DNA from: an uncultured Chthonomonas sp.
Lineage (GTDB): Bacteria > Armatimonadota > Chthonomonadetes > Chthonomonadales > Chthonomonadaceae
Assembly (NCBI GenBank): GCA_903859705.1
Contig: CAIONQ010000029.1
Span: forward strand, 62,001-126,000
Reading direction: 5' to 3'
Length of the DNA: 64,000 nt
The position numbers and the translations under genes were made by a program. The notes under the pieces are model-generated. The model was not told the origin of the DNA and searched no databases. It saw only the letters and a program-made list of their open reading frames with translations. This document shows, one piece after another, positions 3,526-17,545 of this stretch (within the stretch, counting starts at the first letter, position 1; each line of letters begins with the position of its first letter).

Positions 3526-4833
3526 ATGTCCACGGCAACTTCAAACGCCGCCGATCCAATCGCGGCCATTGACGATAAAACAACAAAGTGCATCCGGTGC
3601 GGCTTCTGCCTTGATGCCTGCCCTACGTTTCGCCTTACTGGTATGGAAACGCGCAGCCCGCGCGGCAGAATATACCTGGTTAAGAGCTGGCGGCAGGGGA
3701 CGATTCCATTTGATAGTGATGTGATGGAGGCGCTGGATAGCTGCCTGGGTTGCCGCGCGTGTGAAACCGCCTGCCCATCCGGTGTTGAGTATGGCGCAAT
3801 CCTCGAAATGGCGCGCAGCCACATCGAAGCCTCTGGCATGCGGCCGGCAGCCCAAACTTTTGCCCGTAAACAGCTGCTTGGCACGTTAACAGCACCCGGT
3901 AAACTTGCGGCATCACTCAAGGCAGCCAGCCTTATGGGGCGGTTTACAGGCGGCAAGCTTCCTGGCTTTGCAGCACGTATGCTCACCGGCTCTCAGCAAG
4001 CTTCGGTTACGCTGCCATTGCCCTCAAGTGCAGGCACCTCGGTGCAAAATCTGCCAGAGCGCAGTTTGGCACAGGGCCGCCGAAGGCGCACAGTGGGTGT
4101 GCTTGCCGGCTGTGTTATGCGGGTTATGTTTGGCGATATTAATTCTGCCACGGTACGGGTTCTGCAAACCAATGGATGTGATGTGATTGCACCTGCTGCT
4201 GCGGGGTGCTGTGGAGCCCTGCATCTGCACACCGGTTTTCATGATGATGGCCTGGCGCGCGCGCGCCAGCTAATTGACGTTTTTGCTCCCCTGTTGGATA
4301 GCATGGATGCCATTATCATCAACTCCGCAGGTTGTGGTTCAACCATAAGAGAGTATGGCGAGCTGTTTGCCAACGATCCCGTTTATAGAGATAAAGCAAA
4401 GCGGATGGCTGCGAAAGCCCGCGATATTAATGAGTGGCTGGTGGAAATTGGCTACACTGCCCCCGCAGGAAAATGCAAGGCGGTGGTGGCCTACCACGAT
4501 GCCTGCCACCTGGCCCATGGCCAGAAGGTGCGCCAGCAGCCTCGAGAACTGTTGAAATCCATCCCTGGTGTAACTCTGGTAGAGATGGAAGAGGCCGATA
4601 CCTGCTGCGGCAGTGCCGGAATATATAACATTACAGAGCCCGATCTGGCAAAGAGGCTGTTGGAGCGCAAGCTAAACAACATTCGGGAAACAGGTGCTGA
4701 AATAATTGCCGCTGCAAACCCGGGCTGCCTTGCATGGCTGCAGCAAGGGGCGAAAGAGGCGGGTATGAACCTGCGCATTTGCCACCCTGTAGAGCTGCTG
4801 GATGAGGCATACCGCCAGGAGAAGGGCCGATAG
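3526..4833 (+). CDS. glcF: Glycolate oxidase iron-sulfur subunit
   Basis: The 435-residue protein has the GlcF plan. Two 4Fe-4S motifs lie near the N-terminus (CIRCGFCLDACP and CLGCRACETACP), followed by two CCG-type cysteine-rich domains (GCCGALHLHTG, TCCGSAGIYN), with NSAGCGSTIREYG and AYHDACHLAHGQ matching the family. GlcF passes electrons from the FAD subunits that oxidise glycolate to glyoxylate. No glcD or glcE lies in the window, so its partners must be elsewhere. ATG 3526 is chosen because the family N-terminus begins here; an AAAGG lies upstream. The next gene, a phosphoglycolate phosphatase-like HAD enzyme, overlaps its stop codon, which fits a glycolate pathway operon. Confidence 0.92.
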   Translation: MSTATSNAADPIAAIDDKTTKCIRCGFCLDACPTFRLTGMETRSPRGRIYLVKSWRQGTIPFDSDVMEALDSCLGCRACETACPSGVEYGAILEMARSHIEASGMRPAAQTFARKQLLGTLTAPGKLAASLKAASLMGRFTGGKLPGFAARMLTGSQQASVTLPLPSSAGTSVQNLPERSLAQGRRRRTVGVLAGCVMRVMFGDINSATVRVLQTNGCDVIAPAAAGCCGALHLHTGFHDDGLARARQLIDVFAPLLDSMDAIIINSAGCGSTIREYGELFANDPVYRDKAKRMAAKARDINEWLVEIGYTAPAGKCKAVVAYHDACHLAHGQKVRQQPRELLKSIPGVTLVEMEEADTCCGSAGIYNITEPDLAKRLLERKLNNIRETGAEIIAAANPGCLAWLQQGAKEAGMNLRICHPVELLDEAYRQEKGR

Positions 4834-9634: not shown

Positions 9635-10564
9635 CTACCTGAGCAGGCCGGAACCCGATCCAGAATCGGTTTTGATGTCAAACTCTTTGCGGATTCGGTA
9701 CTTATCACAAACATCGCCCAGGGCATCATCTGCCTGCCTTGCAGTGTCATCTGCTTCGGCAGAAGCTTTACCCTGCATCTCGGTAAGCGCAGATAGCGCC
9801 TTACCCGGGTCGGTATTTGCCTGTGCCAGAGCGTTGTGCACCTGCAAGAACATGCTTTCCACCTTGCCAAGATGCTCGTAGTACTTCTTCTGCAGAATGG
9901 CGCAGCTGGCGGGGGGCTGGCGGGTTAAGAAGTATTTTGCAAGCTGATCCCAGCGGGCGGGATACTGTTCAAACCCCTTATTCATGCTGGGCAAAAAATT
10001 CTTAGAGGCTTCATCACTGGATGCAGCCGCTGCTTCCTGAGATTTTTCCATGGCGCTTTGCATAAGTGCTGTTGCCATAAAATCTTTAATCAGCGACATT
10101 TTGCGCTGTTCAACCTCTTTCAAAAACCTCAGATAATCCAGCACATCTTCCGGAGATTGCTGGCCATCTGGTTTCTGAATAAGATCTGGCGGAGCCTGTG
10201 AAGTGCCGGGTGCCTGAACCAGCGGAGCATTCTTGCTGTCGCCGGGCATCTGTACCAGGCTGCCGTTGCCGCTGCTGCCGGGCGCATTTACCAGCGTGCC
10301 ATTTTTTGTGTTTGCTGCCGAGTGCAACAGCCCGGATCTTACAACCACGGCACCAAGCGCAGCTACGGCCAGGCAGAGCATGCCAATAACTGCCTTTGTA
10401 GATTTACTGAGGCCAGAAGATGCGGGTTTAGCAAAACCTGCTGGCTGCGCAGGTGCTTCCGCTCTGGGGGCAGGCTGGGCTGCGGCAGGCTGAACCGGCG
10501 TGCCACACTTCAAGCAGAAGCGTGATTGCGGCGGCAGATCTGCCTGGCATTTTGTGCATTTCAT
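9635..10564 (-). CDS. Zinc-ribbon, single-pass membrane protein
   Basis: The 309-residue protein starts with a zinc ribbon (CTKC at residues 3-6 and CLKC at 17-20). It continues with a Pro/Ala-rich linker, one transmembrane helix (about residues 58-78) and a disordered stretch with three imperfect repeats of the type NAPLVQAPG (about residues 85-125). The C-terminal domain is helical. The topology suggests a cytoplasmic ribbon and an extracytoplasmic helical domain. No enzymatic motif is visible and the function is unknown. The gene has its own strong promoter at 10642-10670 whose spacer is a palindrome, so it is probably regulated. Confidence 0.8.
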   Translation of the reverse strand: MKCTKCQADLPPQSRFCLKCGTPVQPAAAQPAPRAEAPAQPAGFAKPASSGLSKSTKAVIGMLCLAVAALGAVVVRSGLLHSAANTKNGTLVNAPGSSGNGSLVQMPGDSKNAPLVQAPGTSQAPPDLIQKPDGQQSPEDVLDYLRFLKEVEQRKMSLIKDFMATALMQSAMEKSQEAAAASSDEASKNFLPSMNKGFEQYPARWDQLAKYFLTRQPPASCAILQKKYYEHLGKVESMFLQVHNALAQANTDPGKALSALTEMQGKASAEADDTARQADDALGDVCDKYRIRKEFDIKTDSGSGSGLLR

Positions 10565-14106: not shown

Positions 14107-14787
14107 TCACCGTGGTCTGGCTGCAACGCCCGTAAAGTGAATTGACTCTTCAATTTGCCGAAATTCGTGCAGCGCGGTTTCGTTTGCTGCACCTTCTGTT
14201 GCTATGCTGCAAAAGAACCACACCCTGTCTGAACCAACAGGGTGCATGCACAGCCAGGCTGCGTGCATGGGATGTTGTTTATCGCTGTATTCCACATAGG
14301 TTGATGGCACGCCGGAGATCAATCGCTTTTGCGGTTGGGCGGTGACGTTAAGAGAGCCTCCGATTTGCAGAAACGGGTACCCGTTGGCGTCGATCGTAAT
14401 ATAGGTAGGGTTGATTTCCCGGTACGCAGATATCGACCATTGATCCGGAAGGGGTTGAGCTGGCGCGATGATTCCCTGTTTCAATACATATTTCTTAAAT
14501 AGATACAACAGGTTCTGATGTTGTTGGGGCGTGTAGCGAATGCGCGTACCTTGTGGGAGTTCAGAAGAGGGGCTGTTTGCCCCGGCGGGTAGTATTCTGC
14601 TGAGCACAGTGAAGTGTACCCGTGTGCCAATGTTGGGGCCCGCAGTTAAGACCTGCTCGGTTCGGGAGTAACTATCCACCCACCACAATCTGGCCATCAG
14701 AAGTCCAAATGCCGCCAGTATACACGTAAATGTAAGCCATAGCCTGCGTTGTGATATGAATTTGCTGTGAGGCTCCGCGGTTACCAT
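14107..14787 (-). CDS. Membrane-anchored protein of unknown function, last gene of the Tes-like cluster
   Basis: The 226-residue protein has one N-terminal membrane helix (about residues 15-35, LTFTCILAAFGLLMA) and a soluble domain outside. ATG 14787 is chosen because it overlaps the end of the preceding small membrane protein gene by seven bases. A longer upstream frame is only the shadow of that gene. No known domain is recognised. Its position as distal gene of a probable five-gene minus-strand unit suggests an accessory role to the radical SAM enzyme. Confidence 0.7.
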   Translation of the reverse strand: MVTAEPHSKFISQRRLWLTFTCILAAFGLLMARLWWVDSYSRTEQVLTAGPNIGTRVHFTVLSRILPAGANSPSSELPQGTRIRYTPQQHQNLLYLFKKYVLKQGIIAPAQPLPDQWSISAYREINPTYITIDANGYPFLQIGGSLNVTAQPQKRLISGVPSTYVEYSDKQHPMHAAWLCMHPVGSDRVWFFCSIATEGAANETALHEFRQIEESIHFTGVAARPR

Positions 14788-15071
14788 GGAAGTGGCGACC
14801 AGGGGTGCCCGGCGTGCTGCGGATGCAAAACGGCGTATAGCTGCCAGGCGAAGATACCGGCCCAGAACAGGGTAACCCAGGGCGGCTTCGCCCAGCAACG
14901 ATACTGTTTTACGCCGTATAGAGCAGCTACCACATAGAAGATAACCGAGAGCGCGGAAAGGGCAAGCAGCGAAAAGCGCTGAAATATCAGCACCAGCAGT
15001 GCCGCCTTGCAAAAGGTAAAGGCCCAGCCCTCATAACGCCTGCCTGCAGTTTGTCTATCGTATTCACTCAT
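14781..15071 (-). CDS. Small integral membrane protein
   Basis: The 96-residue protein has three likely membrane helices (about residues 18-30, 33-52, 65-82). It starts two bases after the stop of the radical SAM gene and overlaps the next gene by seven bases, which indicates one polycistronic mRNA. No family is recognised. Confidence 0.7.
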   Translation of the reverse strand: MSEYDRQTAGRRYEGWAFTFCKAALLVLIFQRFSLLALSALSVIFYVVAALYGVKQYRCWAKPPWVTLFWAGIFAWQLYAVLHPQHAGHPWSPLPW

Positions 15072-15073
15072 AG

Positions 15074-16486
15074 TTACCCGCCCTGTTTTGCCACGCTTAG
15101 CGGTATGGCTACCGTACGCTGGCGCCGTGCCCGGTGAAGAACGTTGTATTCGCAGAACGAAACAGCCTGCCCATCCTCCAGTAGGATCTTAGTGCAGCAC
15201 TGAGTGGTGCGGGCCGCATCGTAGGTATGTACATCCATAAAAGGCTTTACCACAATTCGGAAGATGCGCTTGCCTGCCTGTTCCGGGTTGCCCAATAGTG
15301 GCATAAGCTCTTTTACACCGCCCTCCCGATAAAGAAGCGCAAGGTCTTTCAATGTTTGCCGTGCACGCAGATGGGTTACATCGGACCATACCCGCCGCGT
15401 TGCGCTGGATATCAGCCCGGCAAAGCTGATTCTATCTGAGAACATATCCAGGTACCGCCCCACATCCAGGTGGCGTGGCAACGGCTGCATAACGGTGCGC
15501 TTAGCATCCAAAAAACCATAGGTAATGGCACAGCAATCCGGGTGGGAACAGGGAAGCGCAACAAAATCGGAGAGCTGCAATGCTCCGCCTGTTTGTGCTT
15601 CCAGTGCGTGCAGCACATCGGTAAGGGTCATGCGTTCGGCGGGTTTATACTCACTACCGTGCAGGTACCTGCCGGAGCTCATAACCGGCTGGAAGTTGAG
15701 GCCATTGATGTTATCCATCGTGAGCGCAAAGCGGTACAGATCGCCAATTTCGTTATCGTTGATCCCTTTTTCAATTACAGGGGCCAGTGTTGTAAAGATG
15801 CCACGGGCATGCGCCTGCTCCAGGGCGGCCATCTTCTCAGTCAATAGCACTTTGCCATAAAGACGTTCGTGCACCGCAGGCTGGAAGCTGGAGAAGCTGA
15901 GGAAGAGTTCGGTGCGATCTCGGTGAGCAGCAATGCCATCCGCGATGGCAGCGCTTTGAGCTACCCGCAGCCCATTGGTATTTATCAGTATTCTGCCAAT
16001 AGGGTAGGTTAGGGCCAGTGCCAGAATATCCAGAAACTGAGGGTGGATGGTTGGCTCGCCCCCACTCAGCATAAGCAGATCCAGCCGGTTTGTGGTTTTG
16101 AAAAATGCATCCAGTCGGCCACGTATCTCTTCAATGGTCATAAAGTTATGCCCATGCGCATCGGCAAAACAGGTTGGGCATTGCAGGTTGCAGGCGAGAG
16201 TTATCTCGAGCAGAAGCACGCACACGGGTGGGCCATCTTCGCAAGTTTCCCCGGCGCCACAGCATCCGCCCGGCATCCCCATGCGTGCCGAAGTATACAG
16301 GCGGAGGCGTTTGTATTCGGCTGCATCACCTGCAAGCAAGGATTTGTTGCCTCCGTGCTGCGGGCAAACAGAGGTGAGCCAGATCTTACCGGCTTCCTCC
16401 CGGATTTCTGCTGGCGTGGAAGCACGGCATACCGGGCATAGCGAGGATGTGTGCTCTATAAACGGCAATGGCTCGGAACTATCCAT
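15074..16486 (-). CDS. Radical SAM protein of the MJ0619/Tes (tetraether lipid synthase-like) family
   Basis: The 470-residue protein has the layout of the MJ0619 group. An N-terminal rubredoxin-like pair covers CPVC (residues 18-21) and CPQHGG, followed by a Cys-rich GCCGAGETC. The radical SAM motif CNLQCPTC comes next, then SGGEPTIHP and INTNGLR. Late signatures PCSHPDCCAITYGF and CEYN may bind further metal. In archaea, family members join lipid tails to form tetraethers, and older annotation calls them pterin methylases. Related bacterial enzymes have been linked to membrane-spanning lipids. The neighbours are all membrane proteins, including an Lgt-like one, which fits a lipid-directed reaction. 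The exact substrate is inference. GGGAG lies 12 bases before the ATG. Confidence 0.85.
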   Translation of the reverse strand: MDSSEPLPFIEHTSSLCPVCRASTPAEIREEAGKIWLTSVCPQHGGNKSLLAGDAAEYKRLRLYTSARMGMPGGCCGAGETCEDGPPVCVLLLEITLACNLQCPTCFADAHGHNFMTIEEIRGRLDAFFKTTNRLDLLMLSGGEPTIHPQFLDILALALTYPIGRILINTNGLRVAQSAAIADGIAAHRDRTELFLSFSSFQPAVHERLYGKVLLTEKMAALEQAHARGIFTTLAPVIEKGINDNEIGDLYRFALTMDNINGLNFQPVMSSGRYLHGSEYKPAERMTLTDVLHALEAQTGGALQLSDFVALPCSHPDCCAITYGFLDAKRTVMQPLPRHLDVGRYLDMFSDRISFAGLISSATRRVWSDVTHLRARQTLKDLALLYREGGVKELMPLLGNPEQAGKRIFRIVVKPFMDVHTYDAARTTQCCTKILLEDGQAVSFCEYNVLHRARRQRTVAIPLSVAKQGG

Positions 16487-16577
16487 CTACTGTGAGTGCT
16501 CCCTTACAACCCGGGCTGCTGCAGTAGGCAAGCGGTTGCTGACAACACTGAATATGCCTGTTCAAGTTGTTGTGCCA

Positions 16578-16895
16578 TTAACTTTGATAGCGTACCAGGC
16601 ACACCGCCGCTAATCCCAGTATCAGGGCTAAGAGAAGCGCCAGCGAGGTTAGTAAGCCATAGCAGAAGTTGCGCCTGTCTTTCCACAGGAACGATGCAAT
16701 TAAAGGAATGGCAATCAACCCGATGCCGAATGCATATAGAAGTGCGCAGCCAAGCAGCAGGCCAATTATGAAATCTCCAACAGGAGAGGTGAACGGCCCT
16801 TTGCCTTCGGGATTCGGTGCTAAATAGGCACCGCAGTTCGGGCAAAACTCTTGCTCGGAAGTTAACTCTTGCTTGCAGAAACGGCATCTGGACAT
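16578..16895 (-). CDS. Zinc-ribbon protein with two membrane helices
   Basis: The 105-residue protein begins with a zinc ribbon (CRFC at residues 4-7 and CPNC at 18-21) and continues into two hydrophobic helices (about residues 40-70 and 78-102). The ATG at 16895 lies inside the end of the Lgt-like gene (34-base overlap) and lacks a clear ribosome site, so translational coupling is likely. Zinc-ribbon membrane proteins of this size have no single known role. Confidence 0.7.
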   Translation of the reverse strand: MSRCRFCKQELTSEQEFCPNCGAYLAPNPEGKGPFTSPVGDFIIGLLLGCALLYAFGIGLIAIPLIASFLWKDRRNFCYGLLTSLALLLALILGLAAVCLVRYQS

Positions 16896-17545
16896 AGGGA
16901 GGGTACACACTTTCTCAGCTTCGTAAACCGATAGCCAAAAAATAGAAAGCCCACAATGCACGCCCACTGAGCTATGCTGAGGCCCATCACTGGAGGAGGT
17001 GTTTCCCTCCAGAACTCCATAACGAATCGGAAGATGCTGTACAGCGCAGCCTGCATATAAAACAGCGCATTTTCAGGCGGGCTTTTCCGATTATATATTA
17101 GTAGTATTCCAAGTATAGCAAAGTTTGCCAGAGATAGATATATCTGGGTGGGATGCCTAAACGCTCCGTGTTGATACACCGCCCATGGCAGGTTGCAGGA
17201 TTTGCCGTAACAGCATTTGCCGAAATAGCACCCGAAACGGCCCAAAATTTCGCCGGCGCTTATTGCAATTGCAAACAGATCTCCCAGTGGCCTACGAACA
17301 CCAAGCAGCTTCTTACAAACCGCCACGCACAGGTATCCGCCAGCTATGGCTCCCAGTACGGTTTTACCAGCGGTGCCGCCAATAATGCGCTGCGTTAGGC
17401 CAGCAAAAGCAAGGCCACCGAGTAGGCCAGCAAACATCAAAATTATAACCCCCTCTGTCATCAGTTTGCGTGTTCGGGCCATCCACAAAAAGGCCAGAAG
17501 CCCGGTTGTGTACCCGGCGGCATAGCTGATAGCAGAGAGGGTCAT
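16862..17545 (-). CDS. Lgt-like (prolipoprotein diacylglyceryl transferase family) membrane protein
   Basis: The 227-residue polytopic protein has seven or so hydrophobic segments. Near residue 100 it carries GEILGRFGCYFGKCCYGKSC and later RHPTQIYLSLANF. These match the positions of the Lgt signature (GRxGNFxNxE) and the RHPxQLYE motif. The canonical Asn and Glu are replaced by a Cys-rich GCYFGKCCYG. Classical Lgt moves diacylglyceryl from phosphatidylglycerol to a lipoprotein Cys. This divergent version, next to a lipid-linked radical SAM enzyme, may act on another lipid or sulfur substrate (inference). AAGG precedes the ATG. A VOC gene lies 41 bases upstream. Confidence 0.8.
   Translation of the reverse strand: MTLSAISYAAGYTTGLLAFLWMARTRKLMTEGVIILMFAGLLGGLAFAGLTQRIIGGTAGKTVLGAIAGGYLCVAVCKKLLGVRRPLGDLFAIAISAGEILGRFGCYFGKCCYGKSCNLPWAVYQHGAFRHPTQIYLSLANFAILGILLIYNRKSPPENALFYMQAALYSIFRFVMEFWRETPPPVMGLSIAQWACIVGFLFFGYRFTKLRKCVPSLCPDAVSASKS

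Follow-up and report, generated by a model that had tools for sequence, protein, structure and literature searches.

Tes, the archaeal tetraether synthase (GDGT-MAS, MJ0619), is a radical S-adenosylmethionine (SAM) enzyme that couples lipid tails. Counts of its homologues in bacteria run to hundreds of genomes, but no role has been proven for them there (PMC8941075, PMC11868695). Homologues of Mss, the bacterial membrane-spanning lipid synthase, were found in 7 of 13 metagenome-assembled genomes of Armatimonadota from the Black Sea (PMC11868695). Many of the membrane-spanning lipids of bacteria that serve as climate proxies have no known producer. Lgt is the phosphatidylglycerol:prolipoprotein diacylglyceryl transferase, a membrane enzyme that lipidates lipoproteins. 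In the Escherichia coli enzyme, Met100 is found at the first of the phosphatidylglycerol sites, and HGGL has been proposed as the site for the peptide (PMC4728403). His103, Arg143 and Arg239 are essential, and Tyr, Trp and Phe have also been reported at position 103 (PMC4728403, PMC13251419). Here we describe a locus in a window of 64,000 nucleotides (contig C29, positions 62001-126000, of the 6.24-Mb Armatimonadota genome G000) that encodes a Tes-like radical SAM enzyme (rSAM) together with an Lgt-like protein. Its recurrence in at least five bacterial phyla points to a still undescribed route of membrane-lipid remodelling. A literature search for the rSAM/Lgt-like pair found no earlier description. 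The two genes are as follows.

15074 to 16486, minus strand: Tes-like rSAM enzyme, 470 amino acids (aa), with structure and sequence matches to GDGT-MAS
16862 to 17545, minus strand: Lgt-like protein with seven transmembrane segments, 227 aa, likely start at 17545; PF01790 at 90 bits; model best matched by 5azb

A radical SAM protein with a predicted Tes fold

We found that the rSAM protein has, as judged from its model and its sequence, the Tes (MJ0619/GDGT-MAS) fold but is no Tes or TrsS equivalog. The Radical_SAM domain (PF04055) scored 61 bits against a cut-off of 29.5, with the CX3CX2C cluster motif present, and Zn_ribbon_HMPTM at the N-terminus scored 49 bits, well over the Pfam cut-off. 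By sequence, the best solved structure was GDGT-MAS (7tol, E 2.8e-48). The AlphaFold model (predicted local distance difference test score 74, predicted template modelling score 0.82) matched 7tom and 7tol with E 2e-32. For 7tom, Z was 35.5, with 406 residues aligned over 6-458 and a root-mean-square deviation of 3.2. The next structural match, MoaA, had a Z of 17, and other radical SAM structures had Z values of about 17 or less.

The residues of the metal sites were also found. These are a rubredoxin-like site (C17/C20/C41/H44), the SAM cluster (C99/C103/C106), a Cys-rich N-terminal loop (C75/C76/C82/C89) and a C-terminal auxiliary cluster region (C313/C318/C319/C430/C431/C445). In the alignment, the rubredoxin-like and SAM-cluster residues, C318/C319, C430/C431 and C445 line up with Mj Tes. 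In Tes, the sites of the auxiliary-cluster cysteines bind lipid tails and form a sulfur-carbon (S-C) intermediate (PMC9433317). The first-pass annotation, made from the sequence alone, had called the protein Tes-like and proposed a comparison of its predicted structure with Tes structures. The label holds: the match to GDGT-MAS is far above that to every other radical SAM enzyme and the cluster cysteines are kept. Fold and sequence also group the protein with Tes and apart from pterin- and RNA-modifying enzymes. A pterin or RNA role, as the name of the HMPTM domain might imply, was dropped because MJ0619 is GDGT-MAS (PMC9433317).

The two best NCBIfam models were TrsS (NF045646; 231 bits, cut-off 490) and Tes (NF045702; 196 bits, cut-off 450), and the other Lgt-paired rSAMs that were scored were likewise under the Tes cut-off. 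We rejected Tes proper on this score and on the replacement of Met439 and Tyr459. In Tes, Met439 is a labile cluster ligand, and across 1000 archaeal homologues neither residue varies (PMC9433317). Both the score and the tree led us to reject plain TrsS.

Two related enzymes stood out. One rSAM from an Eremiobacterota phylum sample (L158, genome G311) has both Met439 and Tyr459, with no Lgt within the fetched stretch; from its sequence it is possibly a truer bacterial Tes. In an Armatimonadota relative (L044, genome G050), the gene of a Tes/TrsS-like rSAM contains a TGT codon followed by an in-frame TGA (DAPC*PADGG, at ~4083-4088), and its reading frame is otherwise continuous. With the TGA read through, this protein scored 268 bits to TrsS, and the codon is a candidate for selenocysteine.

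Linkage of the rSAM and Lgt-like genes across phyla

The Lgt-like gene adjoins a strong-hit rSAM gene in 15 of 21 Armatimonadota genomes, and a 16th case, on split contigs, is probable. The two genes are adjacent in 9 of 23 Chloroflexota and 10 of 17 Eremiobacterota, the Eremiobacterota count being a lower bound from loci with 1.5 kb flanks. The pair was also present in four of ten plasmid-collection records (Nonomuraea gerenzanensis, Mycobacterium branderi pJCM12687, M. avium pS2b and Persicobacter psychrovividus pPP1). That is, Actinomycetota (Nonomuraea and the Mycobacterium plasmids) and Bacteroidota (Persicobacter) bring the phyla with the pair to at least five.

Within the clade of the window's rSAM, 21 of 24 rows were Lgt-adjacent, and for one of the other three (L058) the contig begins before the expected Lgt position. 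None was Lgt-adjacent in a clade of 13 rSAMs that are mostly from Chloroflexota. All 43 Lgt-like partners fell into a single clade (support 96/92) that excluded the 30 housekeeping Lgts, of which many came from the same genomes; this tree was rooted at its midpoint, and the profile used to collect the adjacent set was itself based mainly on adjacent partners, which is a bias. Support for the partner clade in a smaller tree was 100/99. The distances of paired rSAM and Lgt-like proteins correlated (r 0.49), and none of 2000 permutations gave a value as high. In 22 genomes the correlation was higher for the pairs than for the housekeeping control (0.48 vs 0.34), a moderate effect.

The set is patchy, since no paired rSAM was found in G001 (same genus) or G003 and several carriers are plasmids. 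It probably moves horizontally. On plasmids of M. vanbaalenii and of haloarchaea (L162, L165, L166), a methyltransferase gene, not an Lgt gene, directly follows a related rSAM gene. For one locus labelled Rubrobacter (L066, JADDPT010000047.1), that identity was dropped: the phylum sample of its genome overlaps that of a Chloroflexota genome and its proteins group with Chloroflexia, so it is probably mislabelled or wrongly binned.

A divergent Lgt paralogue

The Lgt-like protein belongs to the Lgt family (its PF01790 score compares with a cut-off of 24.9), and its score to the Lgt equivalog TIGR00544 was 46.5 bits, under the cut-off of 118.9. The model has seven helices and the Lgt fold, with E. 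coli Lgt (5azb) as its best match (TM-scores 0.73/0.60). The housekeeping Lgt of the same genome is encoded on contig C154 and is full-scoring (204 bits).

We compared residues in the 43 rSAM-adjacent proteins and the 30 housekeeping Lgts. The window protein has Lys61, Leu64 and Gly109 at the positions of E. coli Met100, His103 and Asn149. At the Met100 position, 39 of 43 partners have Lys or Arg, whereas all 30 housekeeping Lgts have Leu, Met or Ile. His occupies the His103 position in 14 of the 30 housekeeping Lgts and in no partner, and none of the 43 has Tyr, Trp or Phe there either. Asn is found at the Asn149 position in 4/43 partners compared with 29/30 housekeeping Lgts. In addition, the head region is shorter in the partners (median 17 vs 24 residues). 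The phosphatidylglycerol-site residues Arg103, Arg173, Glu177 and Arg180 (window numbering) are retained. Across the partners, equivalents of Arg143, Arg239 and Arg246 are kept in 41-43 of 43, those of Arg143 and Arg239 (window Arg103 and Arg173) in all 43, and the Gly154 equivalent is retained in the set. With the phosphatidylglycerol-site arginines kept and the HGGL histidine lost, the donor side appears largely kept and the acceptor side changed.

A different signature, GCYFGKCCYG in place of the Asn/Glu signature, had been singled out in the first-pass annotation. It proved not to be distinctive, and we rejected it as a partner marker. The housekeeping Lgt on C154 has the signature GRFGCLFNGCCYG, and most housekeeping Lgts of Armatimonadota share the GC...GCCYG (C...CC) pattern; N146C and E151C/D substitutions in Lgt have been published (PMC13251419). 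Two Chloroflexota genomes (L194 in G103, L195 in G102) have very divergent extra PF01790 proteins that lie far outside both Lgt clades.

Small neighbouring genes

Three other minus-strand genes complete the stretch.

16578 to 16895, minus strand: zinc-ribbon membrane protein, 105 aa, likely ATG at 16895 in a reading frame open from 16967; CxxC...CxxC and hydrophobic stretches
14781 to 15071, minus strand: 96-aa membrane protein (AFTFCK...RCWAKPPW), with relatives beside rSAM in three phyla
14107 to 14787, minus strand: last gene, 226 aa, likely ATG at 14787 (listed reading frame 15012-14107); known from its reading frame and hydropathy

All five reading frames and the motifs noted earlier (CPVC/CPQHGG, CNLQCPTC, PCSHPDCC, FCEYN and GCYFGKCCYG) were found. 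The zinc-ribbon gene, from ATG 16895, overlaps the Lgt-like gene by 34 nt, the rSAM gene is 2 nt from the 96-aa gene, and the 96-aa gene and the last gene overlap by 7 nt. These overlaps and the short gap suggest co-transcription. A promoter and terminator scan of the locus gave no signal exceeding that of shuffles. The G+C content of the stretch (0.53-0.54) is no different from that of the flanks. A VOC/glyoxalase-family gene and a Gfo/Idh/MocA gene flank the five genes and are not conserved with the set.

The 96-aa protein is, by sequence comparison, the third conserved member of the set, with two conserved cysteines in three phyla. Armatimonadota and Eremiobacterota have its relatives beside the rSAM gene; the form found there in Chloroflexota has diverged but keeps both cysteines. 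At the Nonomuraea locus there is a downstream reading frame that looks similar by eye.

The zinc-ribbon protein had only weak zinc-ribbon matches, below the Pfam cut-off. Its relatives were found only at L039, L040 and L057, all near relatives of the window's locus, and different small membrane proteins fill its slot in other phyla. On the M. branderi (L161, 3322-6515) and M. avium (L163, 3192-6512) plasmids, the small proteins between the Lgt-like and rSAM genes end in a shared CTGLNP. A further zinc-ribbon protein, whose soluble part is long, is encoded a few kb downstream in the window (9635-10564); we saw no link to the pair.

The last gene matched no family in Pfam or NCBIfam and had no tblastn match in the fetched loci. 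The idea of an rSAM embedded among membrane proteins stands for the Lgt-like, zinc-ribbon and 96-aa proteins and not simply for the last gene product, which combines a soluble domain with a single hydrophobic segment at the N-terminus. Co-occurrence of all five families held in part: the rSAM and Lgt-like genes recur across phyla and the 96-aa gene in three of them, and the zinc-ribbon and last genes do not recur in this way. A fixed five-gene operon was rejected.

Proposed function and alternatives

We propose that the rSAM and its dedicated, non-housekeeping Lgt-like protein, often with the small two-Cys membrane protein, form a small membrane-lipid-modification system. Sequence and models leave this proposal about evenly balanced between right and wrong. 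The fold, the cluster residues and a partner from a phosphatidylglycerol-using family point to membrane lipids, a reading for which we would put the chances near the halfway mark. The Lgt-like protein would bind phosphatidylglycerol or a derived lipid in the membrane through its retained arginine site, and would either present this lipid or transfer its diacylglyceryl part to an acceptor other than the normal lipobox peptide. The rSAM would then use a 5'-deoxyadenosyl radical to remove a hydrogen from a carbon of an acyl tail. The resulting carbon radical would be held at the C-terminal [4Fe-4S] cluster, as in Tes, before a new bond is formed. By likeness to Tes, the simplest chemistry would join two tails carbon to carbon and so yield a membrane-spanning lipid. 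The fold, the metal-site residues, the linkage over phyla and the separate Lgt clade with its residue signature are what we observed; from these we infer a lipid substrate, the coupling of tails, the order of the steps and a part for the small proteins.

Several points weigh against the proposal. Tes Met439 and Tyr459 are Lys414 and Ile434 in the window rSAM, a replacement that is not decisive because M439A Tes is still active in vitro (PMC9433317). The only solved whole-chain match is GDGT-MAS, so the fold alone cannot fix the substrate. To judge from its residues, the Lgt-like protein, without the HGGL histidine, may be no transferase at all. For six of the 21 Armatimonadota rSAMs no neighbouring Lgt was seen, so an Lgt-like partner is not a requirement of every Tes-like enzyme. 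The mirror-tree correlation is moderate. Finally, the genome showed no DUF2229, a domain of the ether-forming enzymes Ger and PlsA. The ether lipid that had been listed among possible products thus has no support by the Ger/PlsA route.

It is possible, though rather improbable, that the rSAM makes some other radical change in a lipid tail (desaturation, sulfur insertion, cyclisation or a cross-link to another group) with no tail-to-tail coupling. A Lys at a cluster-ligand position leaves room for another radical outcome. The Met439 position behaves as a subfamily marker: it is Met in archaeal Tes and in TrsS (L116), mostly Lys in Lgt-paired enzymes, and Gln in the unpaired, mostly Chloroflexota clade (the unpaired list includes L150 and L152, both of which have an Lgt). 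The N-terminal cluster loop is variable or lacks Cys in the Chloroflexota and Eremiobacterota types. However, the window protein keeps the cysteines thought to hold the cluster of the S-C intermediate, and M439A Tes is active, which both speak against this reading.

Membership in PF01790 and the retained phosphatidylglycerol site would also suit a pair that modifies lipoproteins. Here the Lgt-like protein would lipidate a special set of lipoproteins, and the target of the rSAM would be either the diacylglyceryl chains attached to them or the protein close to the lipidated Cys. On the M. branderi plasmid the pair is preceded by two genes for DUF3558 proteins, a family with many lipoproteins. 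In contrast, the M. avium locus has no annotated DUF3558 genes, and no conserved lipoprotein gene lies beside the pair. The absence from all 43 partners of any residue reported at position 103 in Lgts, within the HGGL motif of the proposed peptide site, and the shortened head region also argue against this reading. We consider this explanation unlikely.

Least likely, in our view, is that the rSAM matures a small molecule, a cofactor or the small Cys-bearing membrane protein, with the Lgt-like protein only anchoring or lipidating a component: the best-scoring NCBIfam model, though under its cut-off, is TrsS, itself a (seleno)protein, and the 96-aa partner has two conserved cysteines, but among solved structures a lipid enzyme is by far the nearest match, and the 96-aa protein is not a general rSAM substrate because it was not found next to several paired rSAMs.

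Returning to the lipid-modification system, a fuller version is doubtful but worth stating. An undescribed lipid-remodelling pathway, carried in part by plasmids and present in five or more bacterial phyla, might begin with transfer of the diacylglyceryl moiety from phosphatidylglycerol to an acceptor other than a protein by the Lgt paralogue. The Tes-like enzyme would join or functionalise the tails, yielding a new class of membrane lipid. Whatever the product, the conserved Lgt-like partner sorts bacterial Tes homologues into likely functional classes, and Lgt paralogues annotated as lipoprotein enzymes likely have a different role. Nonomuraea gerenzanensis, Mycobacterium branderi and Persicobacter psychrovividus are named carriers in which to search for the product.

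Comparison with known systems

TrsS (NF045646), a radical SAM (seleno)protein, gives the best NCBIfam score to the window rSAM, over most of its length. A true TrsS (L116, 538 bits), in contrast, lies far from the window's rSAM clade and has no Lgt beside it.

Mss resembles the proposed role of the rSAM in that it couples lipid tails in bacteria. The unpaired Gln-type clade may be closer to Mss. Membership in Mss would call for homology to a characterised Mss (over 30% identity, E at most 1e-30) and co-occurrence with Ger, which the literature gives as its partner; DUF2229, a domain of Ger, was not found in the genome of the window.

The window's partner shares with Lgt the seven-transmembrane fold, the GR.G...G motif and the phosphatidylglycerol-site arginines. 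It differs in the loss of His103 and Asn149, in Lys or Arg at Met100, in its own clade and in the presence of a separate full-scoring Lgt in the genome. By description, MSMEG_5408, the second Lgt homologue of M. smegmatis, is likewise a divergent paralogue (N146C) beside a housekeeping Lgt; the accessible part of its source describes no rSAM link (PMC13251419).

Among solved structures, Tes is the closest to the rSAM. The two differ in that identity is about 25%, Met439 and Tyr459 are replaced, the N-terminal cluster loop is altered, the host is bacterial and there is an Lgt-like partner; we know of no description of Tes with such a partner. What Tes and the window rSAM share is the whole-chain fold, the rubredoxin-like site, CX3CX2C and the cysteines of the C-terminal auxiliary cluster.

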